From the IMG/VR virus record IMGVR_UViG_3300009430_000002, positions 1 through 44,627 of that record: a stretch of DNA of 44,627 bases. One strand, 5' to 3'. The stretch comes from a virus. A program made the translations under genes and the position numbers. Below the pieces are notes generated by a model. It saw only the letters and a program-made list of their open reading frames with translations, searched no databases and was not told the origin of the DNA. Every line of letters starts with the position of its first letter. The stretch's first letter is position 1. Positions 3,719 through 17,567 of the stretch are shown piece by piece.

Positions 3719-4803
3719 CACGATACCGCCATGGCTTCGGTTCCGTCCATCGTCGCGAGTGCCTGCAACAGCAGGTTCGTACGTGCGACAAGTTCGCCCC
3801 GGATCAGCTTGGTCTGGTCGTTGTCGGGCACGAACGCCGACTTGTTCTTGGCGTAGTTGACGAACGTCGAACGTGACACGCCAAGCTGTTCCGCCATGCC
3901 GGTTTCGCTCACGCCGCACGTCTTCAACGCTTCCAAAACCGAACCGTCGAGTTGACCGGGTGCGGGTTCCCCTGCCGTGGCCTTCGGGGTGCGCGGTGCG
4001 CGAGGTGCCCGTGCCGGTGTCGGTCCCGCGCTGACAGAAGTCAGCTTTTTCGTCAGGTCGTCAGCCGGGTCCTCGAATTCCAGCGCCGCAATCTGCAACG
4101 TGTTCACGTCGTTCATGTCGATGCCGAGACGCGACGCCGCAGACTGCACAAGCGTTTCGTCTTCGTCATCGAAGATGGTTTCCATGTCTTCGTAGACGGC
4201 CATCACGTTGAAAGCCGTGCCCACGTGCATCTTGATCTTGACCAAGACGTTTTCGATAGCGTCTGCCATGTTCGTCAGTTCCTTTTGTTGCGTTTGTGCA
4301 GTCTGCACCGCGTCGGCGAGTGCAGCAAAATCCGTCGCCACGATACCCGCGTTCGCAAGGATTTGCGCAGGCGTCTTGTCGAGTGTCAGCGTCTTCCAGA
4401 TTTCCTTGGCGGCACTGGTGGCCAAGCGTTGCGGGCCGTCCTCTGCCCACACTTGGCTGTCAATCGTGTTGGTGCCAAGCCAGTTCTGCGACAAGCCCTG
4501 TTCGTATTCTTGGAACACGGTTTCCACAATGTCGTCCAGCCCGCTTTCGTAATCGTCGCGCGCCCTGTCGCCTTCCTCGCCGCCCGGCAATGCGTCGTAA
4601 CGCCCGTTGACGGCTTCGTACTGTGCCACCGCGTCGCTGACAGATATGTGGATTTCGTACTGTAGCTTATCCATCACGATCTTCTGCACCGTACGCACGG
4701 CGGCTTCAAACAGCGCGGGTTCCGCCATCTGGTGCGCCTTGGGCATCTTGGCGACTTCGGCGATCACCTGCGATTTGTCAGGCAGGAAGGTGGATAAGTA
4801 CAT
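3718..4803 (-). CDS. Unknown protein with C-terminal helix-turn-helix, 361 aa
   Basis: ATG at 4803 with AAAGGA 7 bases upstream. Residues 1 to ~255 are acidic and helical, with no recognised fold. About 256-285 is a Pro/Ala/Arg linker (PTPARAPRAPRTPKATAGEP). The last ~75 residues contain a helix-turn-helix: VLEALKTCGVSETGMAEQLG followed by VSRSTFVNYAKNK. The layout, a large acidic body tethered to a DNA-binding head, fits a transcriptional or nucleoid-acting regulator. It lies downstream of a hairpin (4949-4986) and leads a coupled set of small genes. It could also bind the origin or act on host DNA. Confidence 0.75.
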   Translation of the reverse strand: MYLSTFLPDKSQVIAEVAKMPKAHQMAEPALFEAAVRTVQKIVMDKLQYEIHISVSDAVAQYEAVNGRYDALPGGEEGDRARDDYESGLDDIVETVFQEYEQGLSQNWLGTNTIDSQVWAEDGPQRLATSAAKEIWKTLTLDKTPAQILANAGIVATDFAALADAVQTAQTQQKELTNMADAIENVLVKIKMHVGTAFNVMAVYEDMETIFDDEDETLVQSAASRLGIDMNDVNTLQIAALEFEDPADDLTKKLTSVSAGPTPARAPRAPRTPKATAGEPAPGQLDGSVLEALKTCGVSETGMAEQLGVSRSTFVNYAKNKSAFVPDNDQTKLIRGELVARTNLLLQALATMDGTEAMAVS

Positions 4804-4948
4804 GACGCGTCCTTTGTTTAATTTGCCCCGGCAGGTTGGCCCTGCGTCTTTCCGTGGGAGGAGGTACGGACTGTTTTGCGCCCGGCTGATCAGGTCCGGG
4901 CAATGTCTAAACTACGGGGACGTGAGCGCAACACTTCTGTCGCTTGGG

Positions 4949-4986
4949 GTGCAGCCCTGTCCACCCTCACAGGGACAGGGCTGCAC
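4949..4986. terminator. Perfect 14-bp hairpin between early genes
   Basis: Arms GTGCAGCCCTGTCC (4949-4962) and GGACAGGGCTGCAC (4973-4986) are perfect complements around a 10-base loop. It sits in the 198-base gap between the 143-aa gene and the 361-aa gene. There is no T-run on either strand, so it may be a factor-dependent or partial terminator, an RNA processing site or an mRNA stabiliser. Confidence 0.6.
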
Positions 4987-5001
4987 TGCCACGCGACAGC
5001 G

Positions 5002-5433
5002 TTACGCGCTGGCAGGCGCGGTGCTTCCTTCGGTGGCGGTCGGGGTGGGCGCGCCCGCGACGGGTTCCGGTTCGATGCGGAACACGCGGACACCACGGCC
5101 CATCTGGTCGTCGTTGACGGTGCGAAGCGCGAACGCGTAACCCGCATTCTTCTTCGCGAAGCGGCGCGTCAGGCCGGACAGGCGGTTCGTGACACCCTTG
5201 GCCTTTTCCTTGAACGTCTTCTCGCGTTCGGCGGGGTCGGTCACGGTGTCGGGCACGGTGACGGCTTCGAGGAACGAAGCGCCAATGGGCATCGCCATCA
5301 GCTTTTCGGCGTCGTCCGACTGCTTGGCCGCAGTGCGCGCCGCCGTCGGGATAGCAAAGCCGGTGTCAAAGGTGAACTTGCCGACGGAAACGGTCGCGAT
5401 TGCGGCGGCAGCGGGTGCGGGGGTCTTGGCCAT
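5002..5433 (-). CDS. Unknown protein, 143 aa
   Basis: ATG at 5433 with AAAGGA 8 bases upstream. It has an Ala/Pro-rich N-terminus, then a basic segment (EKTFKEKAKGVTNRLSGLTR, RFAKKNAGYAFALRTVNDD), then a strand-rich part (GRGVRVFRIEPEPV) and a Pro/Thr/Ala tail. The basic helix followed by an RTVNDD-GVRVFRIE strand pair suggests nucleic-acid binding. I do not recognise a named family. A candidate promoter lies just upstream (5467-5495) and a strong hairpin just downstream, so it may be a separate unit made in larger amounts. Confidence 0.75.
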   Translation of the reverse strand: MAKTPAPAAAAIATVSVGKFTFDTGFAIPTAARTAAKQSDDAEKLMAMPIGASFLEAVTVPDTVTDPAEREKTFKEKAKGVTNRLSGLTRRFAKKNAGYAFALRTVNDDQMGRGVRVFRIEPEPVAGAPTPTATEGSTAPASA

Positions 5434-5466
5434 CTGGATCGTCCTTTTGTTGATGGTAGCGTTACG

Positions 5467-5495
5467 TTGGTAGCCCGTACAGTCTGCCGTGTCAA
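5467..5495 (-). promoter_or_regulatory. Candidate sigma70-type promoter for the 143-aa gene
   Basis: On the minus strand TTGACA (5490-5495) is followed by a 17-base spacer and TACCAA (5467-5472). A second, weaker TTGACG-17-TACCAA lies just upstream, overlapping the end of the 46-aa gene. The -10 matches only three of six consensus bases, so this is tentative. Confidence 0.4.
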
Positions 5496-5529
5496 CGTGC
5501 TTATCTGTCCGGTCATGTACGTTGGTAAA

Positions 5530-5670
5530 CTAGTTTTCGTGCGTCGTCAAGCACTCTTTTTCGTCGCAACGTACAGAATTTTCGCCGATCAGCAGCACGC
5601 CAAACATGACGCCGAACAGCAGCACGGCGAACAGCACGTCGCCAAGTATGTTACGGATACGTCCACGCAT
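5530..5670 (-). CDS. Small single-pass membrane protein, 46 aa
   Basis: ATG at 5670 with AAGGA 8 bases upstream, 11 bases after the previous stop. The product has a basic N-terminus (MRGRIRN), one strong membrane helix (ILGDVLFAVLLFGVMFGVLL) and a polar Cys-containing tail (SVRCDEKECLTTHEN). The positive-inside rule predicts the N-terminus in the cytoplasm and the Cys pair outside. Function unknown. Confidence 0.6.
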   Translation of the reverse strand: MRGRIRNILGDVLFAVLLFGVMFGVLLIGENSVRCDEKECLTTHEN

Positions 5671-5681
5671 TGTTTCGGTCC

Positions 5682-6023
5682 TTATGTTGCGGTGAAGTCG
5701 TTGATTAGTTGTTGCAGCTTGTCGAGGTACGGGCGCGCTGCCAGTACACACTGCTTGCACGTCGCCGGGTTGTCAAGCTGCGTCACAAACCGCGCCAGTT
5801 CTTCCGTCACGAGTGTGTCGAAAGCAGCGTACAAGTCTGCCACCGCGCCCTTGCGCAACGGTTGGTGCATTGATCGCGTCACGGCCAAGCCGTCAACGTC
5901 ACGACGTATCGCAGCGAAAACACGGGCGCGGGGGTGCCCAAACGTCCAGACAGTCAAGCCGTAACGTGTGCGCTGCGGCATCCATCGGAAGTGGCTAAAG
6001 TTCGGCGTCTTCGGTGCGGTCAT
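5682..6023 (-). CDS. Unknown protein, 113 aa
   Basis: ATG at 6023 overlaps the upstream stop as ATGA. The product (MTAPKTPNFSHFRWMPQRTR at the start) has an aromatic/basic first half and a helical second half with one CxxC (NPATCKQCVLAARPYL). No family recognised. It is part of the coupled small-gene run. Confidence 0.65.
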   Translation of the reverse strand: MTAPKTPNFSHFRWMPQRTRYGLTVWTFGHPRARVFAAIRRDVDGLAVTRSMHQPLRKGAVADLYAAFDTLVTEELARFVTQLDNPATCKQCVLAARPYLDKLQQLINDFTAT

Positions 6024-6484
6024 TTCTCGCACTCGTCTTTCACGGCGTCTTGCATCACGTCCCATATCGTCGGGTCAATATTCGACAGTTCGTCATACAG
6101 AACGTACATGCCTTTGTTGCCACGCGCCGCCTGCACTATCCGCCCGGTCACAGTCACGTCACCGTCGGGCGATCCGGGGTCGATACCTATCACGGTCGCG
6201 GCGTGCCCGTTCGCTTCACGCCAGCGTCGTATAACGTACTCGTCGTGTTCCGCTTGCGTCATCTTCTCGCGCACTTTGTACGTCTTGCCGTTGCGCCACT
6301 CCAAACGCCAAACCTTATGCCCATCTTCAACGTGCATAACGCCGTTGCTCTTTACGTGGTGCGCAGACGGCTTAGACCGGCTGTCACGCCTTTTGTTGTT
6401 AGACGTCCAAGGGTCATACTTCGGCGTCGTTTTATCGCGCCGGTTCTTCTCCGACACGTACCACGGCGAAAGCTTTGAACTCAC
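6020..6484 (-). CDS. Unknown basic protein, 154 aa
   Basis: The GTG at 6484 is preceded by GAGGACAGAAGCC, the recurring start module of this phage, which decides the start; the longer frame upstream lacks such a site. The N-terminal half is very basic (SEKNRRDKTTPKYDPWTSNN, KRRDSRSKPSAHHVK) and probably unstructured. The middle has WRLEWRNGKTYKVREKMTQA, and the C-terminal half is strand-rich with IGIDPGSPDGDVTVTGRIVQ. That IDPG string recalls RuvC/RNase H folds, but the other acidic residues are absent, so no nuclease function is claimed. Confidence 0.65.
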   Translation of the reverse strand: MSSKLSPWYVSEKNRRDKTTPKYDPWTSNNKRRDSRSKPSAHHVKSNGVMHVEDGHKVWRLEWRNGKTYKVREKMTQAEHDEYVIRRWREANGHAATVIGIDPGSPDGDVTVTGRIVQAARGNKGMYVLYDELSNIDPTIWDVMQDAVKDECEK

Positions 6485-6511
6485 GGCTTCTGTCCTCACT
6501 GTTCCTAGTGA

Positions 6512-6531
6512 CGTGGCCCCGCAAGGCCACG
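6512..6531. terminator. Short GC-rich hairpin after lipoprotein gene
   Basis: CGTGGCC (6512-6518) pairs with GGCCACG (6525-6531) around CCGCAA. It lies between the lipoprotein stop (6541) and the next GTG (6484). No T-run follows, so termination may be weak. Confidence 0.4.
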
Positions 6532-6540
6532 CTTCGAGGA

Positions 6541-6807
6541 TCAGCACGCGAACGTGTGCAGCCCTGTCATGCTGTCGATCTGCACGAAACCGACGTACGA
6601 CGGCCCGCCCTTATAGCCCGCGTGCGTGGCCGCGCAGTAGTCACGCGCGGTGCGGTAGGGCAAGCTGTCGCGGTAGGCCGCGCCGAAGTCCCACGGCACG
6701 CCCTGCACCGTGACGGTCGTCTCGTTCTTCGCGGAAAGCGTCGGTTCGGGCGTCCTGATGCACGCGGACAGGGTAAGGGCTGCGATAAGCAGAAGACACG
6801 TCTTCAT
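6541..6807 (-). CDS. Predicted lipoprotein, 88 aa
   Basis: Starts MKTCLLLIAALTLSAC: a basic residue, a hydrophobic core and a lipobox LSAC with the lipidated Cys at residue 16. The mature part is about 70 residues with two further Cys that could form a disulfide (DYCAATHAGYKGG and a terminal HTFAC). Small phage lipoproteins of early operons include superinfection-exclusion proteins such as T5 Llp, while those near lysis genes are outer spanins. This one is in the early block, far from lysis genes, so receptor masking or exclusion is the more likely guess. It lies one base after the secreted-protein gene. Confidence 0.75.
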   Translation of the reverse strand: MKTCLLLIAALTLSACIRTPEPTLSAKNETTVTVQGVPWDFGAAYRDSLPYRTARDYCAATHAGYKGGPSYVGFVQIDSMTGLHTFAC

Positions 6808-6808
6808 C

Positions 6809-7039
6809 TTAGCAGTCCCCGTTGCACGGCGGCGGCGGGACGATCACCACGGGGGCGCTGTCCTTGTCGCGGCACAGGATCAGGCAGGCGACGGTCAGCG
6901 CGCCCACGATCACGAGCGGGTTGACCTTGGCGCGGTCGCCCGCCACCTCGGTATCGTAGCGTTCTTCGATCACCGGCCCGCCCGCGAAGGACGGGACGGC
7001 GGTAAGCAGAAGACAGGTGGTCAGCATAAGGTTCTTCAT
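6809..7039 (-). CDS. Predicted exported membrane-anchored protein, 76 aa
   Basis: ATG at 7039 with AGAAGGA upstream. Residues 1-19 form a signal peptide ending PSFA before GGPVIEERYDTE. A second hydrophobic segment (VNPLVIVGALTVACLILC) is a membrane helix, followed by a short Pro-rich, Cys-containing tail (PPPPCNGDC). It is paired with the lipoprotein gene, one base apart, so the two probably act together in the envelope. Similar small secreted proteins with this AGGP cleavage context occur in Rhodobacterales, a weak pointer to the host. Confidence 0.65.
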   Translation of the reverse strand: MKNLMLTTCLLLTAVPSFAGGPVIEERYDTEVAGDRAKVNPLVIVGALTVACLILCRDKDSAPVVIVPPPPCNGDC

Positions 7040-7080
7040 GGGTTCGATCCTTCTCTAGTCGCGCTGGATTGCACGGGAAG

Positions 7081-7098
7081 GGCGCGCCGGGACGCGCC
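7081..7098. terminator. GGCGCG/CGCGCC hairpin
   Basis: GGCGCG (7081-7086) pairs with CGCGCC (7093-7098) around CCGGGA, in the 73-base gap between the 76-aa gene ending at 7113 and the exported-protein gene starting at 7039. The same arm pair is used in the hairpin at 8277-8296. No T-run. Confidence 0.4.
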
Positions 7099-7112
7099 TA
7101 GCCGGTACAGTC

Positions 7113-7343
7113 CTAAGCCATGGCCATGTAGTACCGCAACTCTACGCGCAGCATTCCGGCCAGCGCGTCACTGTCGTCGCCGATCACCCCGGCAGTGGCT
7201 TCCATGCTTTCCGCCAACGCCCGGAAATAGGTCGCTAGGCCGGGTGCGTTTAGACGCGACAGCGCCGCCTGTCCGAGCGTCGCGCCAAGGATCAGCGTGT
7301 GCAGTTCACGCGTCGCGTCGTTAATCATCACCGGGTGTGTCAT
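7113..7343 (-). CDS. Unknown helical protein, 76 aa
   Basis: ATG at 7343 overlaps the upstream stop as ATGA. The product is Ala/Leu-rich and probably all-helical (HTLILGATLGQAALSRLNAP, YFRALAESMEATAGVIG). No motif or family recognised. Last gene of the coupled run that begins at 8191. Confidence 0.65.
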   Translation of the reverse strand: MTHPVMINDATRELHTLILGATLGQAALSRLNAPGLATYFRALAESMEATAGVIGDDSDALAGMLRVELRYYMAMA

Positions 7344-7567
7344 TGCTTCATTGCCCTTTCCAGCCCCATCACGGCGCGCTGATACATGTCTTCGTCAACG
7401 TGCACTACCTTAAGCAATGCGCTACGGTTGTACACGCGGTGAAACGCCACTTCCGCCGCACGTCGCGTACTGTACAGCGAAACGATTTTCAGTTCAAGCC
7501 TGTTTATTATCGCCGCGCGCTGCACGTCCTTTGCAGACGTCGGTGCATTCGGGTTGACGTCGATCAT
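7340..7567 (-). CDS. Unknown protein, 75 aa
   Basis: ATG at 7567 is preceded by AAGGACAGAAACC and overlaps the upstream stop as ATGA. The product is helical and basic (SAKDVQRAAIINRLELKIVS, RRAAEVAFHRVYNRS). No family recognised. Confidence 0.65.
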   Translation of the reverse strand: MIDVNPNAPTSAKDVQRAAIINRLELKIVSLYSTRRAAEVAFHRVYNRSALLKVVHVDEDMYQRAVMGLERAMKQ

Positions 7568-7764
7568 GGTTTCTGTCCTTGTTCCTCTTGCCAGCGTTCT
7601 TCTGCCTTACGCAGAATGTCGGTCACGCTGCCTTGCGTACGCCACCATATCGTCAGCACGCGTACCTTCGTAAAGTGCCACGTCTCGCCGTTGAACCGCG
7701 CGCAGTGGAACACCGTTTCGTCGCCGCTTTCATAGCTGCGGATGATATGCCAATGGCCCGTCAT
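7564..7764 (-). CDS. Unknown protein, 66 aa, ends GQKP
   Basis: ATG at 7764 with AGGATGGAAGCC upstream, overlapping the preceding stop as ATGA. The first half is strand-rich and aromatic (HWHIIRSYESGDETVFHCAR, NGETWHFTKVRVLTIWW); the second half is a charged helix ending GQKP. Those last residues are the translated ribosome binding site of the next gene. Confidence 0.65.
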   Translation of the reverse strand: MTGHWHIIRSYESGDETVFHCARFNGETWHFTKVRVLTIWWRTQGSVTDILRKAEERWQEEQGQKP

Positions 7765-7955
7765 GGCTTCCATCCTGCGAACTCGCGGCAGAGGTGTTCC
7801 GCGTACGTCGGATCAATTGCGACGTTATGCCGCTGACGTATTGTTTCGATAAGGTTGGCGGGGCCGTGATGCCCGAACCGCTTCGCGTCGCTGATAAGCG
7901 CAGCGTCAAGCCGGTCTTTAGCAGCTTGCGTCTTCTGTTTCGCCGTGTACCTCAT
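7761..7955 (-). CDS. Unknown protein, 64 aa, ends GWKP
   Basis: ATG at 7955 with GGAG 8 bases upstream, overlapping the previous stop as ATGA. Basic and helical (MRYTAKQKTQAAKDRLDAAL), with NLIETIRQRHNVAIDPTYAE in the second half. The end GWKP again overlays the start site of the next gene. Function unknown. Confidence 0.65.
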   Translation of the reverse strand: MRYTAKQKTQAAKDRLDAALISDAKRFGHHGPANLIETIRQRHNVAIDPTYAEHLCREFAGWKP

Positions 7956-8191
7956 GCCGGTATCTCCAATGCGTAGATTTCTTGCGGGCGCAGCGTTTCA
8001 ATCTGCGTCATGACCCATGCGCCCGGCTTGGGCGCAAGCGGCGTGCCCACGTCGTACAGCGCGAGGGGCTGGCCAGCAATCCAAGCGTCAAGGATTGCAA
8101 GCGCGGCGGGTTCGTCTTGGCGCGCGAGTTGTTCGAACGTCAGCAGCGGCGCGGATAAATCCTGCACGCGTTCTGTGTTTAATTCGGCCAT
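7952..8191 (-). CDS. Unknown protein, 79 aa
   Basis: ATG at 8191 sits behind AGGACAGAAGCC. It is the first gene after the promoter at 8235-8263 and starts the coupled run. The product is acidic (MAELNTERVQDLSAPLLTFE, QDEPAALAILDAWIAGQPLA). The longer frame to 8263 would cross the promoter and is not supported. Confidence 0.7.
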   Translation of the reverse strand: MAELNTERVQDLSAPLLTFEQLARQDEPAALAILDAWIAGQPLALYDVGTPLAPKPGAWVMTQIETLRPQEIYALEIPA

Positions 8192-8234
8192 GGCTTCTGT
8201 CCTATTTGCGGGTTGCGAGGGTCGTTTTCTTTTA

Positions 8235-8263
8235 CTAGTACACGTGTAGTGCGTCACTGTCAA
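8235..8263 (-). promoter_or_regulatory. Sigma70-like promoter for the small-gene run
   Basis: Minus strand: TTGACA (8258-8263), an exact 17-base spacer and TACTAG (8235-8240), about 44 bases upstream of the ATG at 8191. The -35 is a perfect match and the -10 is four of six. It lies directly after the hairpin that ends the VWA gene, so it restarts transcription after a stop. Confidence 0.65.
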
Positions 8264-8267
8264 ATGG

Positions 8268-8304
8268 TCTAATTAAGGCGCGCCTTGCGACGCGCCCGAT
8301 TAGA
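8268..8304. terminator. Two-part hairpin after the VWA gene
   Basis: TCTAAT (8268-8273) pairs with ATTAGA (8299-8304), and inside it GGCGCG (8277-8282) pairs with CGCGCC (8291-8296). It begins 5 bases after the VWA stop. The symmetry is similar on both strands; the minus-strand 3' arm is followed by ACCATTTG rather than a long T-run. Confidence 0.55.
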
Positions 8305-8308
8305 TCAC

Positions 8309-9520
8309 TTAGGGCAACTGGATTGCTTCGCCCCACTTCGGGAACTTGCCGCGCTTCCCGTAGCGCGCCCAAAGCGTAGGTACGCCAGTATCCTTGACGT
8401 CGCGCGGAAAGTCGCAATCCGTAAAGCAAATGACGGCTTGTGCGTCGCGTGCTGCGTCAAGCGCGGGCTGCATGTTCGTACCGCCGCCACCCTTAAGCTT
8501 GACGTTCAACGGTTCGCCCGGTTCAAGCGTGTACTGCGCTACAATCTTGGTATCGCAGAGAATGACTTGCACCTCGTTTGGCCTAACGTCATCAATCGCG
8601 GCTTGCAGTTCGGACAGGAACGCCGCAAGCGTCGCGGGATTGCACGTGCTGCCAGACACGTCAAAGATAGCGACAAGCGCGCCCATGGCATCGGGAACGT
8701 TGCCCGGCAGATACGTACCGGAATGCACGTGCCGACGGTTCGGACGGTGCCACTGTTGCGTCACGCGTGCCGTGCTGTCTACGAACCGCCGCAGAACTTG
8801 CCGCCAGTCGATTGCAGCTTTCTTAAGTTCTGCGGCGGCAAGCGCGCCCATGGCGCTACCTTTGCCCGATGCCTTGGCCACGTTATGCGCCTGCTGCACC
8901 TTGGCCATGGTTTCCAGTTCTGCGGCGGCAAGCGCGGCAGTGTCATGAGGTGCATCCGCGTCTAGGACGTCACCGGGTCGCGACGGCTTGCCTTGGCCCG
9001 TAGCGCCGCTGGGCGCGCCCTGCGGCGCGCTTTGAGGCTGTCCGGACTGTTGACCCTGCGGCGCTTGGCTAGGCGCGCCCTGCGGATGTCCCTTGCCTTG
9101 GCCGTTGTCCTTCCCGTCGGCTTGCAGCTTGGCGTAGATATCCTCTGCCGACATGCCGTCAAAGCCTTTGCCGACAAACCCGAACTTGGCGACCTTGAAA
9201 CCGTCCTTTTCCAACTGCGGATCAATCGCATAGTCGCAAGCCATGTTCCACTGTTTCGGATCACGGTTGCCGCGCCGCGTGTGGTGCAAGTTCGCGACAT
9301 GTGCAACCTCATGAGCCACCACGCCGCGAATAGTTTCGTCGTCTTCACTCTCGACAAACGACGGATTGAAAAAGATAGACTTTCCATCTGTCGCCATTGT
9401 GTCGATATCGTCGCGCTGTACGAATTGCATTGAAAGCGCCATTGTTGCGTAAAATGGCGCATTCATTATCATATGGGCGCGCGCCCTAGATAGTTTCAAT
9501 TCGGCGGGTGTTTGTGCCAT
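8309..9520 (-). CDS. VWA-like domain / putative metallopeptidase protein (DUF2201-like)
   Basis: A 403-aa two-domain protein. Residues ~10-130 are the putative metallopeptidase domain of DUF2201-type proteins, with HEVAH at 70-74 (a zinc HExxH motif). Residues ~139-185 are a Gln/Gly/Pro linker. The C-terminal third is a von Willebrand factor A-like domain with the metal site DVSGS (Asp287, Ser289, Ser291) in ALVAIFDVSGST. Such proteins are partners of MoxR-type ATPases, here encoded 10 bases upstream, and probably act with them as a protein-remodelling machine. ATG at 9520 has AAGGG 8 bases upstream; the longer frame antedates this and is unsupported. Whether the HEVAH site is an active protease is not known. 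Confidence 0.85.
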   Translation of the reverse strand: MAQTPAELKLSRARAHMIMNAPFYATMALSMQFVQRDDIDTMATDGKSIFFNPSFVESEDDETIRGVVAHEVAHVANLHHTRRGNRDPKQWNMACDYAIDPQLEKDGFKVAKFGFVGKGFDGMSAEDIYAKLQADGKDNGQGKGHPQGAPSQAPQGQQSGQPQSAPQGAPSGATGQGKPSRPGDVLDADAPHDTAALAAAELETMAKVQQAHNVAKASGKGSAMGALAAAELKKAAIDWRQVLRRFVDSTARVTQQWHRPNRRHVHSGTYLPGNVPDAMGALVAIFDVSGSTCNPATLAAFLSELQAAIDDVRPNEVQVILCDTKIVAQYTLEPGEPLNVKLKGGGGTNMQPALDAARDAQAVICFTDCDFPRDVKDTGVPTLWARYGKRGKFPKWGEAIQLP

Positions 9521-9530
9521 TGTCGCGCCC

Positions 9531-10535
9531 TTACAGATAAACGTTGGAATTGTCAGACAGCCAACGGATAGCGGCGGCAGTCTTTTCAAGCGTGCTGTCC
9601 CGTGCCGTCGCGTCGCGCATGGCAATGACGCCATATTCGGGCGGCAGTCGGTTGATGTACGTGACGAAAGCGTCAATCGACTGGTGAGTGACACGCCGCG
9701 CCAGCGCACCAGCGAGTGCGTACAGCGTCGCACCGTCTTGCGGGATAGGCGCGCCCGTCGGGTTGAGCAACACGACGTCAGGCGACGGCAGGCGACGCCA
9801 TACTTGCAGAAACGCCAGCAATTCAGACGCGGGACCGGTCCCGACAAGCGACGCAATAACTGGCGTTTCAACGCCAATCGGCAGGGCGCGCTTAAGGTGT
9901 TTCCCGACCATTGCCCACGTACGCGGCGTGTTGTTCACCGATCTGTCGGCTTCAAACTGGCAAAGCAACTCGGGACGGAACCGGATGAACGCCACCAGTT
10001 CGGGCGCGACGTCGTTTGCCAGTGCCCACGTGCACCAGTCGTTAAGGTCTACAACCATGGCCACATGGGCGAAGCGGTTCGCAAGCGCGCTGTTGATCCG
10101 GTTGACGCCAGCGCGATCTTGCAGCCTGTTTCCCGCCGCGACCACGCGCCAACCCTGCGGCAAGTGGTATTCCCCAATCCGCCTGTCGAGTACCAGCGAG
10201 AAAGCGGCGTTCTGCACTGCCATTGGCGCTTGTGGCAGTTCGTCCAAAAACAGAATACCTTGCGCACCGTCGCGGCTTTCGTCGGGCAATTCGCCCATGG
10301 GCAGGAACACGGCTTTTCCGTCGCGCGGTGCGGGAAGCCCGCGCAAATCCACCGCGTCGATAGTCGAAAGGCGCATATCCACCATACGCCAATTGCGCGC
10401 CGCGCTGATCTGACGAATGACGTCAGACTTTCCCGCGCCCGGCTGGCCGGTCAGCAGTACGGGAACGTCGGCATCAATGTGCGCTTCAATCACTTGGCGC
10501 GCTTGCGAGGGTTTCAGTTCAAGTTCGGTTGTCAT
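9531..10535 (-). CDS. MoxR-family AAA+ ATPase
   Basis: A 334-aa AAA+ protein. Walker A is GQPGAGKS (30-37), Walker B is ILFLDE (94-99) with the LPQAPMAVQNAAFSLVLDR helix typical of the AAA_5/MoxR group, sensor 1 is RVVAAGNR, and the Arg region is ALANRFAHV. MoxR ATPases work with VWA-domain partners as chaperones that mature or remodel protein complexes; phage N4 has a comparable AAA/VWA pair. The gene is 10 bases from the VWA gene and is preceded by one copy of the 69-bp direct repeat, which supplies its ribosome binding region. Confidence 0.9.
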   Translation of the reverse strand: MTTELELKPSQARQVIEAHIDADVPVLLTGQPGAGKSDVIRQISAARNWRMVDMRLSTIDAVDLRGLPAPRDGKAVFLPMGELPDESRDGAQGILFLDELPQAPMAVQNAAFSLVLDRRIGEYHLPQGWRVVAAGNRLQDRAGVNRINSALANRFAHVAMVVDLNDWCTWALANDVAPELVAFIRFRPELLCQFEADRSVNNTPRTWAMVGKHLKRALPIGVETPVIASLVGTGPASELLAFLQVWRRLPSPDVVLLNPTGAPIPQDGATLYALAGALARRVTHQSIDAFVTYINRLPPEYGVIAMRDATARDSTLEKTAAAIRWLSDNSNVYL

Positions 10536-10548
10536 GTTAGTTTATCCT

Positions 10549-10617
10549 TTTGCGAGGGTTGCGAAGCATTGGCGCTTCTAAAGCTAGTCGCCATGGCGAC
10601 TAGCCTAGAAACGTCAC
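10549..10617. repeat. 69-bp direct repeat, copy 1, with 22-bp palindrome
   Basis: Identical to 11526-11594. On the minus strand it starts at the stop codon of the DUF3150 gene and ends in the AAAGGA-type ribosome binding site of the MoxR gene. Inside is a perfect 22-bp palindrome (10583-10604) with arms GCTAGTCGCCA and centre CCATGG, extended by TTCTA/TAGAA after a small mismatch. It could act as a dimeric operator, or as an RNA hairpin for attenuation or processing. Confidence 0.9.
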
Positions 10618-11513
10618 GCGCCCATAAAGGACGCCATGGCGTCGGCAATGTCAGCAGCCGATTGTGCGGTTTCAGCCCGCAGCGCGGCATCCTCGCGCAA
10701 GGCTTGTGCGTCATGCCTGACAAGCTTGGCGCGTGCATCCTCGATAGCCTTGGCGATTTGTGCGTCGCCTGTAACGTTCAACATGGGCAGAACGGCCACC
10801 AGTTCCCGCACGTTTTCCACAAGGCTGTCACGGAACGGGTTGCCCTGCTTTCCTGCGGCGGGATCATACGCCGCAAGCTTGTCAGCCATTGCACGTGCAA
10901 CCTTGTGCAGCCTGTCGGCAACGTCTTTCACCGCGTCACCCATGGCCGCTTTGATATCGGCTTGCATGTCGGCTTGCAGCGCCGCAACCGTGTCTTTATC
11001 CAAGTCAACGCGAAAGTCAGCAGCCGACGGCATAGGCAGCGTGTTGACGCGCCATGCAAAGCGTTTGGCGACTTCCCACTTGGAAGGGTAATCCGCCGCA
11101 TTGAACAACCCGCCCAAATCCTCGCGCGCTTGTTCAATGTAGTCAGGATAGCTTGCGAGAAAGTCGGCGACTTCACGCTCAAACGCTTCCCGGTGCTTTT
11201 GCATCTTCGCGCTGTACGTCTTGAAGGCATCAACCGGCATGATCCGCGTGCCGTCTTGCAGCCAAGGCAGCGTGTAAGACGCGTGGTCAACCCGCGCCTC
11301 TGCGGCGATGGCAGCGATAGCGGCAAGCGCGCCGCGTGCCACCAGCGACTTGTTATAGCGTCCCGCGTCGCGCTTGGCATCTTCACGTTGCGCGACGTCG
11401 GCAGTAACACGCTTGTCAAGTTTGCGCGCTGTCCACTGCGATATCGAAAGTTGCACCAGCAGTACGCGGCTTGTCAGGTCTGTGGCGCGGATTGGTTTAA
11501 CTGTCATTTGCAT
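10614..11513 (-). CDS. DUF3150-like protein
   Basis: About 299 aa, mostly helical. The pattern matches DUF3150-type proteins as I know them: a leading LSISQWTARKLDKRV segment, a GRYNKSLV motif, then TLPWLQDGTRIMPVDAFKTY and an FLASYPDYIEQA helix, with long amphipathic helices to the end. DUF3150 genes often sit beside MoxR/VWA genes, as here, and the three probably form one complex. Start: ATG at 11513 or 11507; both lie behind the AGGACAGA-type site. The gene is bracketed exactly by the two 69-bp repeats. Confidence 0.75.
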   Translation of the reverse strand: MQMTVKPIRATDLTSRVLLVQLSISQWTARKLDKRVTADVAQREDAKRDAGRYNKSLVARGALAAIAAIAAEARVDHASYTLPWLQDGTRIMPVDAFKTYSAKMQKHREAFEREVADFLASYPDYIEQAREDLGGLFNAADYPSKWEVAKRFAWRVNTLPMPSAADFRVDLDKDTVAALQADMQADIKAAMGDAVKDVADRLHKVARAMADKLAAYDPAAGKQGNPFRDSLVENVRELVAVLPMLNVTGDAQIAKAIEDARAKLVRHDAQALREDAALRAETAQSAADIADAMASFMGA

Positions 11514-11525
11514 CTGTCCTAGTCC

Positions 11526-11594
11526 TTTGCGAGGGTTGCGAAGCATTGGCGCTTCTAAAGCTAGTCGCCATGGCGACTAGCCTAGAAACGTCAC
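11526..11594. repeat. 69-bp direct repeat, copy 2, with 22-bp palindrome
   Basis: Identical to 10549-10617. On the minus strand it begins at the TGA stop of the 38-aa membrane peptide gene (11591-11593) and ends in the ribosome binding site of the DUF3150 gene. The perfect palindrome is at 11560-11581. Confidence 0.9.
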
Positions 11595-11707
11595 CGTTTG
11601 ATTGCGATGGTTGCGAGGATCACGGCCAGCGTGACGAACAGTGCAAGCGTGGCCGTGGTGAAGTCGAGTTGCAGCGTAGGTGCGACTGATACGAACTTGG
11701 CCCCCAT
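11591..11707 (-). CDS. Small membrane peptide, 38 aa
   Basis: ATG at 11707, two bases after the stop of the 70-aa gene, with a GGGGG run about 9 bases upstream. The product starts MGAKFVSVAPTLQLDF and has one membrane helix (TATLALFVTLAVILATIAI), ending KR. Codon phase and coupling support it, but a 38-aa frame could arise by chance. It directly precedes repeat copy 2 and the DUF3150/MoxR/VWA set, so it could anchor that complex to the membrane. Confidence 0.5.
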   Translation of the reverse strand: MGAKFVSVAPTLQLDFTTATLALFVTLAVILATIAIKR

Positions 11708-11709
11708 GA

Positions 11710-11922
11710 TCACACGCCCCCGTTAAGCTTGGCGATTGCGGCATTGATATCCGCCTGCTTTGCGCCCGACTTGATCACCTTGACGTTGCGCGGCGGCGTG
11801 CCGTGCCAAATGTAATCGGTACGCTCTGCGGTAACGTCGTCCTTATCGTACGCGCCGAACTCTGCGGCCCAAGCGTCGGTTGCCGTGTCCCGTACTGCCA
11901 GTGTGTAGTAGGTGCGTGCCAT
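11710..11922 (-). CDS. Unknown protein, 70 aa
   Basis: ATG at 11922 with AAGGA 9 bases upstream, behind a promoter at 11993-12020. The product (MARTYYTLAVRDTATDAWAA at the start) looks like a small alpha/beta fold, with HGTPPRNVKVIKSGAKQADI near the end. No family recognised. Confidence 0.7.
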   Translation of the reverse strand: MARTYYTLAVRDTATDAWAAEFGAYDKDDVTAERTDYIWHGTPPRNVKVIKSGAKQADINAAIAKLNGGV

Positions 11923-11992
11923 CGTGTTGCTTCCTTGTGTTACGGCCATGCGTGGCCCCTCTGGCGTTGTCGTGTCGTGTCGCCTGCTTCGC

Positions 11993-12020
11993 AGGATAAG
12001 CATATAACACGTGCTGTCAA
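11993..12020 (-). promoter_or_regulatory. Sigma70-like promoter, early block
   Basis: Minus strand: TTGACA (12015-12020), a 16-base spacer and TATCCT (11993-11998), which drives the 70-aa gene at 11922. The -35 overlaps the stop of the 122-aa gene. Confidence 0.55.
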
Positions 12021-12385
12021 TACCCCTTAAGCGTCAAGTTGTGTAGTTTGTCGCTTTCGTCGCACAAACCGTACACATGGGACACGTGATCAAGCGCCAG
12101 CGCAGTCAACTCGCCATCAAGGTACACGTTCCGCCCGTTGTGCGTGATGTACAACCGCCCGTCATACCGCACGCGGCGCGAGTTGTGCGACCCGCCAAGC
12201 CGTATCGCCTCACACAAGATGACAAGACAGTCTGTCCAGCCCTCACCCGCAGCGCGGCGCGCCATGATCCGACCCAATGGCCACGAATAGACACTCTCGA
12301 CATGTTGCACGCCAAGCTGCCAAGGCATTGGCAGGCAATCACGACGGGAACGCCGCGAATTGGGGGAATTGGGAATTAAGGTCAT
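12017..12385 (-). CDS. Unknown basic protein, first gene of the leftward block, 122 aa
   Basis: ATG at 12385 (a shorter ATG is at 12328; neither has a strong ribosome site, the first having GGA 9 bases upstream). The N-terminus is Arg/Pro-rich (NSRRSRRDCLPMPWQLG); the rest is a mixed fold with SRRVRYDGRLYITHNGRNVY. Being first next to the control region it is a candidate immediate-early product, perhaps a host-takeover factor. No family recognised. Confidence 0.6.
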   Translation of the reverse strand: MTLIPNSPNSRRSRRDCLPMPWQLGVQHVESVYSWPLGRIMARRAAGEGWTDCLVILCEAIRLGGSHNSRRVRYDGRLYITHNGRNVYLDGELTALALDHVSHVYGLCDESDKLHNLTLKGY

Positions 12386-12391
12386 TGCAGA

Positions 12392-12844
12392 GTGTCCAAT
12401 TAGGGTTAGTGGCCCTAGATACCCCTAAAAACCGTGTTGTGCTAGTGGTTAGTGTGTCTGCGGCCCTCGGGGGACGCAGTCCACTTGCCCTTGCACTATC
12501 CGGCCTATGTGAATGCTTTTAACATGTTGTACAGTGTGTACAATTAGGCAGAGTGTACAATTAGGGTTCAATTGCATTGGCTGATTGTACAACACTATCT
12601 AATCGGACGAATTGCGGAACGCACTCTACCGCATTCGTCTCATGTGCACGCATTGCGCGACTTATGCAGTGTACACGTTGTACAGATAAGGGTGGATTGG
12701 CCCGATCTGGTGGCCGCAGCGTGTGTAACTGTACGATATGCACGACTAGCACAACGCTAAGTCATTGATATCATTGGCATTCCATTGTCCGATAAGGGTT
12801 ATTATGTCAACAAGGGCAATTTGCACGCATTGTACGACAAGGGT
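12392..12844 (+). repeat. Dispersed TGTnC..AAGGGT motif family
   Basis: Copies: GTGTCCAATTAGGGTT at 12392, GTGTACAATTAGG at 12536, GTGTACAATTAGGGTT at 12553, GTTGTACAGATAAGGGT at 12677, ATTGTCCGATAAGGGTT at 12784, ATGTCAACAAGGGC near 12804 and ATTGTACGACAAGGGT at 12829, plus a weaker GCGTACGATAAGGAC at 13042. All are on the plus strand in the same orientation. The consensus is roughly TTGTMCRATWAGGGT. Repeated same-direction sites in a control region suggest a regulator or initiator binding array. Confidence 0.75.
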
Positions 12845-12937
12845 GGGGGTAGGGCCGGGGGTGGGGGGCGATGTGCGTTTCGCGCGTGAGACCCCGAAAC
12901 GCGCCGTTTCGCCAACACACCCTCAAAAATTATACAA

Positions 12938-12991
12938 GCAGTTTGTACAAATCCGCAGCAGTTTGTACAAATCCGCAGCAGTTTGTACAAG
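12938..12991 (+). repeat. Three 20-bp iterons with TTTGTACAA core
   Basis: The unit GCAGTTTGTACAAATCCGCA recurs at exactly 20-bp spacing, with cores at 12942, 12962 and 12982; the third diverges after CAAG. The core TTGTACAA is a palindrome. Spacing of about two helical turns puts all cores on one face of DNA, as in initiator or repressor arrays. An AT-rich stretch lies immediately upstream. Confidence 0.85.
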
Positions 12992-13101
12992 TTGCCCGCA
13001 AAGTGTGTAACACACGCAGAGTGTACAACGACCGCACCCGTGCGTACGATAAGGACGACGCTTACACAAAGTGTACAACTGGAAAATCGGCCTACGGCGT
13101 A

Positions 13102-13130
13102 TTGACTAGGCGGCAGACGCGCGGTAGGGT
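13102..13130 (+). promoter_or_regulatory. Candidate rightward promoter
   Basis: TTGACT (13102-13107), a 17-base spacer and TAGGGT (13125-13130), then about 20 bases to the AAAGGA site of the first rightward gene. The -10 is weak (three of six), so an activator bound to the upstream repeats may be required. Confidence 0.45.
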
Positions 13131-13161
13131 GGCCTCTCTGTTGCAACAGAAAGGACAGACA

Positions 13162-13821
13162 ATGCCGACGAAAGACGAACTGATTGACGAAGTGGCGACG
13201 CTGAAACAGCAGCTTGCCGATCTGACGGCGGGTGTGGGCGACGTGGCGACCGAACAGGCCCCGGCGCAGAGTGCGGCGGATATGTGGGTGGAGCGTGCCG
13301 GGCTTGGCGTGATGGTTGAGCCGGTGCAAGACGCGGCGGGGCAGAACACGGGGGATACCGATATCTACCTGTACGGAAGCGACGGGATGCCCGCGAACGG
13401 TGTCATCGTTGATGGCGCGTTTGAAGCGGGCGTGTCGATGGCGCGGAAGGCGCAAGGGTCGGGGCACGCGCTGGACGTCGAAGGTGTTGACACCTACACG
13501 TACGACGAGGTGGGCAAAGCCTTTGTGCGCCACGCTGACGGTGAAGCCTTCCCGCTCGAAAAGTGGCAGGTGGACAACGGCGACGGCACGCACAGTGACG
13601 TGGTGGAAGGCAAGCGGTATGTCGTCGTGTCCTCGGGCGTGCTGCGCGAGTTGCAGCCGGGCGACGAAAGCGAACTGGCGGCGAAGGTCGAACAGTTGCA
13701 GCATGACTTGCTGATGGCCAACACGCGCGCCGACGAACTGCGCGAGGCGAACGCCGCCTTGAACCGGCGCTTGGCCCAACCCCTGCACGGGTCCATTGAC
13801 GACCTGCCTGCCGTCGTGTAG
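13162..13821 (+). CDS. Unknown coiled-coil protein, 219 aa
   Basis: ATG at 13162 with AAAGGA 6 bases upstream. The N-terminal coiled coil is DELIDEVATLKQQLADLTAG; the middle ~110 residues are strand-rich (TDIYLYGSDGMPANGVIVDG); the C-terminal coiled coil is SELAAKVEQLQHDLLMANTR and beyond. It is first in the structural block and followed by a strong terminator, so it is probably transcribed as a short, abundant message. It could be a minor virion or assembly protein; no family recognised. Confidence 0.75.
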   Translation: MPTKDELIDEVATLKQQLADLTAGVGDVATEQAPAQSAADMWVERAGLGVMVEPVQDAAGQNTGDTDIYLYGSDGMPANGVIVDGAFEAGVSMARKAQGSGHALDVEGVDTYTYDEVGKAFVRHADGEAFPLEKWQVDNGDGTHSDVVEGKRYVVVSSGVLRELQPGDESELAAKVEQLQHDLLMANTRADELREANAALNRRLAQPLHGSIDDLPAVV

Positions 13822-13884
13822 ATAGGGGGTGTCCTAGCGAGGGACGGGAAGACCCTTCCTGTTGGAAGACTGTCTCATAGACTT

Positions 13885-13911
13885 GGCCACCCTTGACCGG
13901 GTGGCCTTTTT
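13885..13911 (+). terminator. Rho-independent terminator
   Basis: GGCCACCC (13885-13892), loop TTGACC, GGGTGGCC (13899-13906), then TTTTT. It follows the 219-aa gene and separates it from the LamG-like gene. Confidence 0.9.
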
Positions 13912-13949
13912 CGTGGGATACGTTGTGCAGATAACGCAGGGGATAGGCC

Positions 13950-14900
13950 ATGCCTGACTACCCGGTACTTGACGGCACAGGTGAGGTCATCATCGCAGCA
14001 GCGGAAGGACCGGACACCGTGTATCCCGTACTCGACAAGGCAGGCAACGTGATCATTGCCGCAGCCCAAGGCCCGGCAGACACCTATCCTATCCGCGACG
14101 GCGCGGGCAACCCAATCCTGTACGAGTACAACGGGCCGGGCGGCGGCGGGCCGACGCTCGAAGAACAAGTGGCGACCATCATCGGCACGACGAAAGGCTG
14201 GTTGCTGCGCAAGTCGGACATGGCGACACAGTTTCAGGACGACACGGGTCTGACGCCCGTTACTGCACTGGCGCAACCCGTAGGGCGCATTGTGTCGAAG
14301 TACGGCAGCGGGACCGTCATGTTCACGGGCGCGGGGTCAACACGTCCCGTGTACAACGGGGGTTCCGAACTGTATGACAACAGCGACGACATTCTTGCGT
14401 CGCCCGCGCCGCTTGACACGTTGCAGGACGTCGCGAGCGGATACATGTGCATGGCGTTCAAGCCGACGGGCACGCTCGGTTCGGATCAGGTGTACTTTTT
14501 CAGCACGGGCAGCGGCGGAACCATACACCGCCACGCCGGTATCGTTGGTGCGACGGGCACGTTTCAGTTTAGCGCGAAACGCCTTGACGCCGACGCGCTT
14601 ACCAACATCACGTGCGCGGCTGGCGTCATCGTGTCAGACCAAACGCATGTCCTTGAACAAATCAACAACTACGCGACGGGCGCTATCGAAGGATGGGTTA
14701 ACGGCGTGCTTGTCGCGTCGGGTACGATGGCAGGAACGCCGGGCAACAGTGAGAACACCGCTGGCCTCGCCGGGCAGTTTGGGCGATACTCGACGTCCCG
14801 ATTTAGTGGGTACATCGGCGACGTGTGTATGCTGCCGTTCGTTCCGACGACAGAACAGCGCGCTACCATCCGCGCGCTTATGGCAGAGGTGCCGCTATGA
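13950..14900 (+). CDS. LamG/concanavalin-like virion protein, 316 aa
   Basis: The N-terminus has three imperfect repeats of about 27 residues (YPVLDGTGEVIIAAAEGP; YPVLDKAGNVIIAAAQGP; YPIRDGAGNPILYEYNGP). A Gly-rich hinge and a linker follow, then residues ~120-316 have the strand pattern of a laminin-G/concanavalin-like jelly roll (GYMCMAFKPTG, GAIEGWVNGVLVASG, FSGYIGDVCMLP). Such domains on phage particles bind glycans as decorations or adhesins. It precedes the terminase genes, away from the tail fibre gene. The exact location on the particle is unknown. Confidence 0.65.
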   Translation: MPDYPVLDGTGEVIIAAAEGPDTVYPVLDKAGNVIIAAAQGPADTYPIRDGAGNPILYEYNGPGGGGPTLEEQVATIIGTTKGWLLRKSDMATQFQDDTGLTPVTALAQPVGRIVSKYGSGTVMFTGAGSTRPVYNGGSELYDNSDDILASPAPLDTLQDVASGYMCMAFKPTGTLGSDQVYFFSTGSGGTIHRHAGIVGATGTFQFSAKRLDADALTNITCAAGVIVSDQTHVLEQINNYATGAIEGWVNGVLVASGTMAGTPGNSENTAGLAGQFGRYSTSRFSGYIGDVCMLPFVPTTEQRATIRALMAEVPL

Positions 14901-15286
14901 GCATTATCGCTTCGGTGACGTTGGCGAACTCGACGGCGGCGAACAAGACGCTGGCAGATGCCGGTTACGGCGACGAACAATTTTCCATGCCCGCCAGACG
15001 TGCAGGCTTCAAGACAGACGCGACGCGTGTATATTTGTCGCACTTGGCAGACGATCCAGCGTACGAAGCCTTGGTGAAGACGCTGCCAAGCGTGCAGTTT
15101 ACGCAATTCGCGTTTAACGACCGGACGGCGGAGCCTGTACTCGCGGCGTTAGCCGCGCAGAACCTTGAGGCGTTGTCGAAAGAGACAGCCGACGCGGAAG
15201 GTCGCGTTCAGGCGGTCGCGCTGCACGACAAAGCAATCGCTTTCAAGCCGCGCGACGCGAAGGCAACGAAGATTACCCGTACATAA
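14897..15286 (+). CDS. Unknown protein, 129 aa
   Basis: The ATG at 14897 overlaps the LamG gene stop as ATGA, so the two are co-translated. The product (MSIIASVTLANSTAANKTLA at the start) is mixed, with a C-terminal helical segment (VLAALAAQNLEALSKETADA). It probably partners the LamG protein. Its 3' end overlaps the minus-strand terminase small-subunit-like gene by 14 bases. Confidence 0.65.
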   Translation: MSIIASVTLANSTAANKTLADAGYGDEQFSMPARRAGFKTDATRVYLSHLADDPAYEALVKTLPSVQFTQFAFNDRTAEPVLAALAAQNLEALSKETADAEGRVQAVALHDKAIAFKPRDAKATKITRT

Positions 15287-15752
15287 GCTGGTGTAGCAAT
15301 TCGGCGTCTTCGTCCACCAACACCGCGTCTTCGATCTGCGACGGCGCGGGCAACGCGGCGACGGAACGCTGTTTCGCCATGACAAGTGCATCGGTGATAG
15401 CGCGGTCAAGCGACACTTCGTGCTTAATCTCGATCTTGTCGCCGAACCGGCCCGGATCACGTTTTGCCAGAACCCACTTGATATTGTCCGACTGCACCTT
15501 GGCCATTTTGCTGTCGGTGTTGCCGTAGATGGCGTGGGTATCGACGTCAAGCAGCGCGTCCATAAGCGCGTCGTTTCCGCGCTGCAAGGCGTCTTCGTAA
15601 AGTTCCGTCAGCGTTTCGTCGTCATTGACGTACTTTTTGAACGCCGGGATGGACAGGCGCACCATGTCGCAAGCCGCAGTCAGGGTGCGGCCTTGACCGA
15701 TTTGGTCGATCACATATAGTACGGCGTTGTAGTAGTCGTACACCAGAGACAT
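15273..15752 (-). CDS. Terminase small subunit-like protein, on the opposite strand
   Basis: A 159-aa protein with an N-terminal helix-turn-helix-like part (TLTAACDMVRLSIPAFKKYV), a helical middle (ELYEDALQRGNDALMDALLD) and the WVLAKRDPGRFGDKIEIKHE block typical of phage small terminases. The small subunit binds the packaging start and regulates the large subunit. The ATG at 15752 has AAAGGA 8 bases upstream. It is the only minus-strand gene in the rightward block and diverges from TerL across 39 bases. A plus-strand frame in the same place has no recognisable protein and is rejected. Confidence 0.8.
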   Translation of the reverse strand: MSLVYDYYNAVLYVIDQIGQGRTLTAACDMVRLSIPAFKKYVNDDETLTELYEDALQRGNDALMDALLDVDTHAIYGNTDSKMAKVQSDNIKWVLAKRDPGRFGDKIEIKHEVSLDRAITDALVMAKQRSVAALPAPSQIEDAVLVDEDAELLHQLMYG

Positions 15753-15791
15753 AGCGCGGTCCTTTCGCCGCTAAATGTAGGGGTAAACCGC

Positions 15792-17336
15792 ATGGCGCGC
15801 AACAGCGGTTTGAGCATTGCGAAAGAGAAAGAACTAGCGACGTTTATCGCCACGTTCTACGACAACCCCTACGGCTTCGTTATGGCGGTGTTCCCGTGGG
15901 GTGTGCCGACGTTGCCCGACGGATCACCGAACCCGCTTGCCGACAAGAAAGGGCCGGAAGACTGGCAGCGCGACTTGCTGATTGAACTCGGTGAGCATAT
16001 CCAGAACAACAATATCCGCCGCGAGTTCGGCATGGATACAAAGGTCTGGCGGTCTGCCGTCGGATCAGGCCACGGTGTCGGCAAGTCGGCGTTGGTGGCG
16101 TGGGTCATCTATTTCCTTATGAGCACGCGGGTTGACACACGGGGTGCCGTGACGGCCAGTACGCAATTCCAGCTAGAGGATAAAACGTGGCCGGAACTAG
16201 CGAAGTGGCACAATCTGGCGATCAACAATCACTGGTTTCGCTGGACAGCTACGACGTTTAGCTTTGCGGCGTATCCCGAAGACAAGCAGAAGAACTATCG
16301 TACGACGGCTGCGACGGTTAGCGAAACCAACACCGAAGCTTTTGCCGGTCTGCACAACGAAGGCAAAACGGTATTTGTGGTATTTGACGAAGCGTCTGGC
16401 GTGCTTTCGAAAGTGTGGCAAGTCGCCGACGGGGCGCTAACAGACGGTGAAGCGTTCTTCTTTGCGTTCGGAAACATGACGCGGCCTGACGGCGAGTTCG
16501 TGGATTGCTTCGAGAAACATGCTGATCTTTACGTCACAAAGAACGTGGACAGCCGTTCGGTACGACTGACGAACAAGAATGCACTGCAAGACATTATCAC
16601 GAAGTACGGAATTGAAAGCGACGAAGTTCGTGTACGTATTTTGGGTAAGCCGCCGATTACTAGCTTCGACGCGTTCATTCCGATGGAAGCGGTAAATTTG
16701 GCGAAAGCGCGACAGGATTGGGGCGACAACGGCGCGGCGCTGATTATGGGCGTGGACGGTTCGCGTTCCCCTGTCGGCGACAAGTTTCGTATATCGTACC
16801 GCCAAGGTCGCGACGCGCGGTCACTGCCTTCACTAGAGTTTCGCGGTATGAACAGTATCGAAGCGTTTCGTGTCGTATCACGTGAAGCCGACAGAACACG
16901 ACCCGACGCGATTATCGTTGAAGGCACGGGACCGACGACGGGACTTATCGACTTATTGAAACACCGCAAATATCCCGTCATCGAAGTTTGGCCCGGCGCG
17001 CCGTCAAGCATTCCAGCAAAGTATTACAACAACCGCGCTGAATGGTACGACACGCTGCGTACGTGGTTGTGGGATGAAGGCGTGTTGCCGGAACACTGCG
17101 ACAACTTGGCGAAAGAGTTGACGTCTATACGTTACGGTTACAACAAACAGACGCAAAAGATGATCATGGAGAGCAAGCAGGACATGGCTGACAGGGGCTT
17201 GCCAAGTCCCGACGAAGCCGATAGCTTGATGCTCACATTCGCGGCGAGGGTGGCGCGTCGCGACATCAACAAGCTGCACGCCGCCAACACCCGTGGCCGA
17301 CTGGCCAAAGTGGAAGAAGACCCTTTAGGCGAATGA
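15792..17336 (+). CDS. Terminase large subunit
   Basis: A 514-aa packaging motor. The ATPase domain has Walker A in GSGHGVGKSA (91-100), Walker B VVFDE (196-200) and a coupling motif FGNMT near 226. The C-terminal RNase H-like nuclease has Asp322 in LIMGVDGSRS, an acidic Glu377 in IIVEGTGP and a final acidic motif in PSPDEADSLML near 475. It pumps DNA into the prohead through the portal and cuts it. The start has AGGGG upstream. Its stop overlaps the next ATG. Confidence 0.95.
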   Translation: MARNSGLSIAKEKELATFIATFYDNPYGFVMAVFPWGVPTLPDGSPNPLADKKGPEDWQRDLLIELGEHIQNNNIRREFGMDTKVWRSAVGSGHGVGKSALVAWVIYFLMSTRVDTRGAVTASTQFQLEDKTWPELAKWHNLAINNHWFRWTATTFSFAAYPEDKQKNYRTTAATVSETNTEAFAGLHNEGKTVFVVFDEASGVLSKVWQVADGALTDGEAFFFAFGNMTRPDGEFVDCFEKHADLYVTKNVDSRSVRLTNKNALQDIITKYGIESDEVRVRILGKPPITSFDAFIPMEAVNLAKARQDWGDNGAALIMGVDGSRSPVGDKFRISYRQGRDARSLPSLEFRGMNSIEAFRVVSREADRTRPDAIIVEGTGPTTGLIDLLKHRKYPVIEVWPGAPSSIPAKYYNNRAEWYDTLRTWLWDEGVLPEHCDNLAKELTSIRYGYNKQTQKMIMESKQDMADRGLPSPDEADSLMLTFAARVARRDINKLHAANTRGRLAKVEEDPLGE

Positions 17337-17344
17337 GGCAAAGC

Positions 17345-17566
17345 ATGGTAGGACGGCCCAAAATGCCAGCGGTGCAGTACCCCGACCCGCCGCCACCCGC
17401 GCCAGAACGTAGCACGGGCGAGACAGCGGACTTGGCGGCAGAACAGCGGCGCATGTTCTTCAAGCGCGGTGGCCGGGCGTCCACGTTCCTTGGGGCGTCG
17501 GGCGGTGGTCAACCCGCCTCGGTCGCCCTGCGCTTCCTTGGGGCCGCTGGGGCCTCGGGGGGCTGA
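17345..17566 (+). CDS. Small Pro-rich protein upstream of portal, 73 aa
   Basis: ATG at 17345 with GAGG 6 bases upstream; an alternative ATG at 17333 overlaps the TerL stop. The sequence starts MVGRPKMPAVQYPDPPPPAP and has a central RRMFFKRGGRASTFLG motif, ending RFLGAAGASGG. Podophages often carry a small Pro-rich protein with such an RGRASTxL motif next to the portal gene. Its role is not settled; a minor head component is likely. Confidence 0.65.
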   Translation: MVGRPKMPAVQYPDPPPPAPERSTGETADLAAEQRRMFFKRGGRASTFLGASGGGQPASVALRFLGAAGASGG

Positions 17567-17567
17567 C

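Follow-up and report, generated by a model that had tools for sequence, protein, structure and literature searches.

Near-identical intercistronic hairpins recur within the genomes of a phage lineage and appear functional

The virus record analysed here (hereafter the window) is 44,627 bases long, and its genes include those for a head-tail connector, terminase, capsid protein, DNA polymerase and primase. It carries two identical 69-bp spacers, which we conclude are a real and functional-looking feature. They are intercistronic hairpins of a kind that, in this phage lineage, is near-identical inside any one genome. Hairpin repeats of their own, similarly placed before other genes in a variable early operon, are borne by at least five related phages. 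By analogy with phage T7, we think it somewhat probable that these hairpins serve the RNase III-type processing, or the stabilisation, of a polycistronic early mRNA.

A self-repeat search of the window confirmed that positions 10549-10617 and 11526-11594 match at 69 of 69 bases, as the earlier note had reported. This pair was the sole long interspersed repeat, barring the 100-bp identical ends and an adjoining repetitive stretch. The identical ends (1-100 and 44528-44627) lie inside a low-complexity coding repeat and suggest that the genome is circular or terminally redundant, or that the assembly overlaps itself. On the minus (coding) strand, each copy begins at one gene's stop codon and reaches the Shine-Dalgarno region of the gene that follows, again in agreement with that note. 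The repeat opens with GTGACG, whose TGA is the stop codon of the DUF3150 gene in copy 1 (10616-10614) and of a 38-aa ORF in copy 2 (11593-11591), and closes with CAAA adjoining the Shine-Dalgarno sequences of the MoxR and DUF3150 genes. Copy 1 therefore forms the DUF3150/MoxR junction and copy 2 lies 5' of DUF3150. All neighbouring genes are on the minus strand: the DUF3150 gene between the two copies (10614-11516; PF11348, Pfam E = 7.3e-07), a MoxR-type AAA ATPase gene 3' of copy 1 (9531-10535; AAA_5, phrog_1297), a DUF2201 metallopeptidase/VWA gene as the third member of the module (8309-9520; PF13203 and PF09967) and the 38-aa ORF (11591-11707), which from its sequence probably encodes a small membrane peptide. 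The papers searched included none on DUF3150 in phages.

The perfect 22-nt palindrome GCTAGTCGCCATGGCGACTAGC was present on the minus strand at 10583-10604 and 11560-11581 (repeat search), as described previously, but it constitutes only the inner stem of a longer, interrupted hairpin (about 10613-10573 in copy 1). This hairpin, CGTTTCTA-G-GCTAGTCGCCATGGCGACTAGC-TT-TAGAAGCG, comprises 18 bp broken near the middle (-25.8 kcal/mol for the hairpin alone), with an inner G+C stem of about 9 bp, a 1x2 internal loop and an A+U-richer outer stem of 8-9 bp. Both spacer copies folded 3.2-3.7 standard deviations better than dinucleotide shuffles. There was no exact match to the palindrome in viral_contigs and no match to the hairpin pattern in genome_contigs, and the only relative of the repeat itself found across all searches, including IMG/VR, was in the nearest neighbouring genome, with none in genome_contigs. 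One match to the hairpin pattern (L006) was discarded as an unrelated contig without DUF3150. Rfam gave no family match for the repeats, the only hit within 9400-12700 being a chance match to mir-759 (E = 3.1) elsewhere in that region.

That nearest neighbour, G002 (IMGVR_UViG_3300045125_000029), is syntenic with the window and about 75% identical to it. Its homologous DUF3150/MoxR element (L005 2383-2453) is 90% identical to that of the window, well above the gene background, and carries a compensated stem change from T-A to G-C. The counterpart of copy 2, 5' of DUF3150 (L005 about 1390-1466), has diverged and largely decayed, with loss of the hairpin fold; the G002 contig carries frameshifts and part of this decay may be error. 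Inside the G002 VWA gene, L005 4387-4408 reads AACCCTCGC followed by GACGTTTCTAGGC, which match the spacer element at its one end and its other; this may be chance or a trace of copying. Contigs from a second metagenome (IMG 3300025106; L016 and L049/L097) are 99.99-100% identical to window positions 312-8572 and 12501-28636 and represent the same phage, the repeat region being missing between them.

Pairing has been maintained under substitution. Across the window/G002 stems and the copies within two further genomes (G014 and G011), aligned using hand-picked stem registers, 9 of 66 stem pairs had changed: five were compensated on both sides, four were one-sided with pairing kept and none was broken. 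Such compensated changes could also come from a protein-binding DNA dyad. Of 16 hairpins folded on both strands, 13 were more stable as mRNA (Wilcoxon, P = 0.008); not all elements of this set are independent, and several hairpins, though not the window repeat, had been selected by folding the mRNA strand. For the window repeat, the values were -25.8 kcal/mol on the mRNA strand and -19.6 on the complement. Its outer stem also contains G-U pairs, together with an internal loop that is asymmetric. The hairpins are not intrinsic terminators, because no U-tract follows them (the next bases after the repeat hairpin are CCAATGC), and no terminator was called at the repeats.

Both spacers lie in a minus-strand operon (1.6-12.4 kb) that combines small variable genes with the DUF3150-MoxR-VWA(DUF2201) module and, from its gene content, is probably early. 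At least six strong intercistronic hairpins occur in this operon; the repeat pair accounts for two of them, and the others are single-copy. A hairpin of -21 kcal/mol or lower occurred in 6 of the 8 spacers of at least 60 nt between 4.8 and 12.0 kb (the exceptions being 5434-5535 and 11926-12016), whereas -20 kcal/mol was reached by only 11.8% of 80-nt stretches drawn at random from coding sequence. The single-copy hairpins, all on the minus strand, are located after the VWA gene (8265-8308; -23.7 kcal/mol, same architecture, two wobble-consistent changes in G002), at 7069-7112, at 6499-6544 (starting at a stop codon; -23.4 kcal/mol) and after the gene at 5002-5433 (4945-4988; -33.7 kcal/mol, two pairs compensated on both sides relative to G002). 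No promoter was called beside the repeats. Between the divergent operons, non-coding GCAGTTTGTACAAATCC-like tandem repeats (12942-12990) may be a replication origin or an operator array.

We then compared relatives defined by a capsid-protein search (30 loci), whose records were searched for DUF3150 and MoxR. By self-comparison, four of these genomes have their own repeated spacers: an exact 90-bp pair in G012 (38808 and 39183), three copies of ~80 bp in G014 (38502, 39065 and 39725; 94.9-98.7% identity) with a diverged fourth near 38045, an 83-bp pair in G022 (34771 and 35220; 96%) and an 84-nt pair in G011 (14478 and 15183; 80%). In all four, the elements span approximately from a stop codon to a ribosome-binding site (RBS) and each contains an interrupted hairpin, while the spacer sequences are unrelated between the genomes. 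Identity within a genome was 95-100% in G012, G014, G022 and the window, whereas most related phages share no recognisable similarity. Genes following the repeated spacers are mostly lineage-specific, but the whole block is variable, so the association is an uncontrolled one. Self-comparison of G015 revealed a 34-bp leader repeat only, and of G023 none. A spacer-long repeat of this kind was absent from T7, BcepC6B, HTVC010P, BUCT708 and BPP-1 and not clear in MW202898; the self-matches of T7 are its promoters, and the MW202898 repeats lie in and around one gene. A candidate pair in G013 (L098 3531-3646 and 4093-4208) was rejected, as the repeats are not spacers. The two are 86% identical, with differences seemingly concentrated at the A positions of one copy, and are probably the template/variable pair of a diversity-generating retroelement.

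These comparisons do not support, in the form in which it was put, the proposal in the earlier note that the repeats bracket DUF3150 as a cassette would. Among the capsid-defined relatives examined, DUF3150 homologues occurred only in G002 and G024. Similar spacer pairs or triplets flank unrelated genes in G012, G014 and G022, all of which lack DUF3150. Conversely, G024 has DUF3150 and MoxR (39-40% identical to those of the window) with different spacers, which hold other hairpins and no direct-repeat pair; this combination of the same genes with unrelated spacers is what the note had named as evidence against its idea. In G002, little is left of the copy before DUF3150. A DUF3150-specific cassette is rejected because the repeats occur without DUF3150 in three genomes and DUF3150 occurs with different spacers in another. 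Judged from the sequences compared, the bracketing of DUF3150 is incidental, the feature having been misattributed to this gene by its position. Identical dyads flanking DUF3150 in Synechococcus phage MinM2 and in G003 at first appeared to support a cassette, but they recur across those genomes. In MinM2 (L040/L041), the palindrome GGTTCAGNCTGAACC has about 16 copies (e.g., 45662, 46574, 47956, 51954 and 52216), many of them between a stop codon and an RBS, including both DUF3150 flanks, and looks operator- or hairpin-like. In G003 (L042-L044, 34125-39181), the palindrome CTTCACAGNCTGTGAAG has at least eight copies, two of which flank DUF3150.

Three roles had been offered for the palindromes: an operator for a dimeric regulator, an RNA hairpin for attenuation or processing, or a recombination site. 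A processing hairpin fits best, given the compensated stems, G-U pairs, preferential folding of the mRNA strand, lack of a U-tract and T7-like layout. The early transcript of T7 is cut at five RNase III sites to give optimally functional mRNAs (PMC4858673). The T7 sites R0.5, R1 and R1.3 lie, like the window elements, between early genes just before an RBS, and when folded alongside they displayed the same plan, with an inner stem of 9-11 bp, an internal loop and an A+U-rich outer stem. An intergenic position upstream of an RBS and a hairpin of ~17-20 bp with an internal loop, both typical of T7 sites, were found in the window (18 bp; inner 9 and outer 8-9). The stems of R0.5 and R1.3 also have much of their sequence in common; however, the T7 sites are not near-identical over whole spacers and do not figure among the T7 self-matches listed. 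RNase III-type processing or mRNA stabilisation is taken as the likeliest role because these sites follow the same plan and the T7 transcript is cut at them. Cleavage is proven for the T7 sites, whereas those of the window are putative, by analogy: we infer cleavage from a position, architecture and maintenance of pairing that were observed directly.

As a recurring element, the closest known kind is the SAS/ESAS of Cluster K mycobacteriophages and Cluster EF Microbacterium phages, whose consensus varies between subclusters (PMC3203893, PMC7302621); in function, the closest are the T7 RNase III sites. Like the window-type elements, which recur as inverted repeats 5' of several unrelated non-structural genes, SAS/ESAS are recurring intergenic inverted repeats directly 5' of a conserved RBS, in non-structural operons and before varied gene families. 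In contrast, ESAS repeats do not support RNA pairing, and SAS are present 11-19 times and share a conserved core of 13 bp, whereas for window-type elements RNA pairing is supported and the 2-4 copies fill the entire spacer. The 13-bp GGGATAGGAGCCC-like sequence by the start codon was absent from the window, where starts are preceded by CAAAAGGATAAACTAACATG and CAAAGGACTAGGACAGATG. The palindromes of Cluster O mycobacteriophages and Cluster EG Microbacterium phages (17-18 bp) are likewise intergenic and genome-specific, but they are short dyads without spacer-long identity, and those of Cluster O are not tied to start sites.

On this reading, the hairpin would be a site of host RNase III-type processing, or one that blocks decay, and would thereby cut or insulate the long early transcript to yield stable mRNAs that are translated separately. 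Two observations sit less easily with this reading. The hairpin of the upstream G002 copy is lost, albeit in a contig whose frameshifts make error possible, and a generic RNase III substrate would not need identity over all 69 bp, the unpaired tail included. The identity of the copies requires a second, evolutionary explanation: within the genome, recombination may have copied the spacer or made its copies uniform (copying or gene conversion), with the outcome that each genome would have its own element before its accessory genes. More tentatively, and as a single joint proposal that we put forward as a minority possibility, the spacer may be a genome-specific, recurrently copied and ready-made expression module. 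New accessory genes would enter the early operon accompanied by a copy of the spacer already resident there, which would process or insulate their mRNA. Recombination would keep the spacer uniform inside any one genome, whereas from phage to phage it would be wholly different.

Similarly unlikely, though credible, is that the repeats mark gene cassettes borne by recombination, the spacers providing homology for the entry, movement and loss of accessory genes and the hairpin being of minor importance. Identity over 69-90 bp is enough for annealing-type recombination, the repeats lie in a hypervariable block before mostly lineage-specific genes, and deletions between intergenic repeats are seen in Cluster O mycobacteriophages (PMC4351075). 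The recombination-site role is possible, but searches that included IMG/VR found no fused-site variant of an integron-like cassette, that is, no genome with a single fused copy lacking the intervening gene. The maintenance of pairing also argues against it, as does the presence of similar but single-copy hairpins elsewhere in the operon's spacers.

We consider it distinctly unlikely that the hairpins act in translational coupling or as an RNA switch, in which a terminating ribosome would open the outer stem, altering access to the next RBS or letting the 3' arm refold. The 5' arm of the outer stem does abut the stop codon, and in G022 the Shine-Dalgarno sequence sits in the outer stem. The freed 3' arm could form a 5-bp mini-hairpin in the window (shuffle P = 0.019) and in G012 (P = 0.039). 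Across ten elements, however, this mini-hairpin showed weak enrichment only, three of them reaching P < 0.05, so that it was rejected as a general feature and is suggestive in those two genomes. In the window, moreover, the Shine-Dalgarno sequence stays free when the long hairpin forms, with weak local pairing only. Binding of a dimeric phage or host regulator to the palindrome as a DNA operator is very unlikely, and less likely than a processing hairpin. The perfect 22-bp dyad and the many short operator-like intergenic dyads of MinM2 and G003 are consistent with an operator, but there are two copies only, with no promoter called next to them, and the G-U pairs, asymmetric internal loop and better folding of the mRNA strand speak against it. 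Finally, a functionless recent chance duplication or assembly artefact, as exact identity and second-metagenome contigs that stop at 8572 and resume at 12501 (leaving the repeats without independent contig confirmation) might suggest, is scarcely credible given the related downstream element and upstream remnants in G002 and the same pattern in four other phages.

This suggests a repeat pair around a single gene need not inform on that gene. Near-identity within genomes, set against no recognisable similarity between most of the related phages, provides a testable case of concerted evolution in a regulatory RNA. By reusing one structured spacer, phages may integrate new genes into a polycistronic operon that is already in place.
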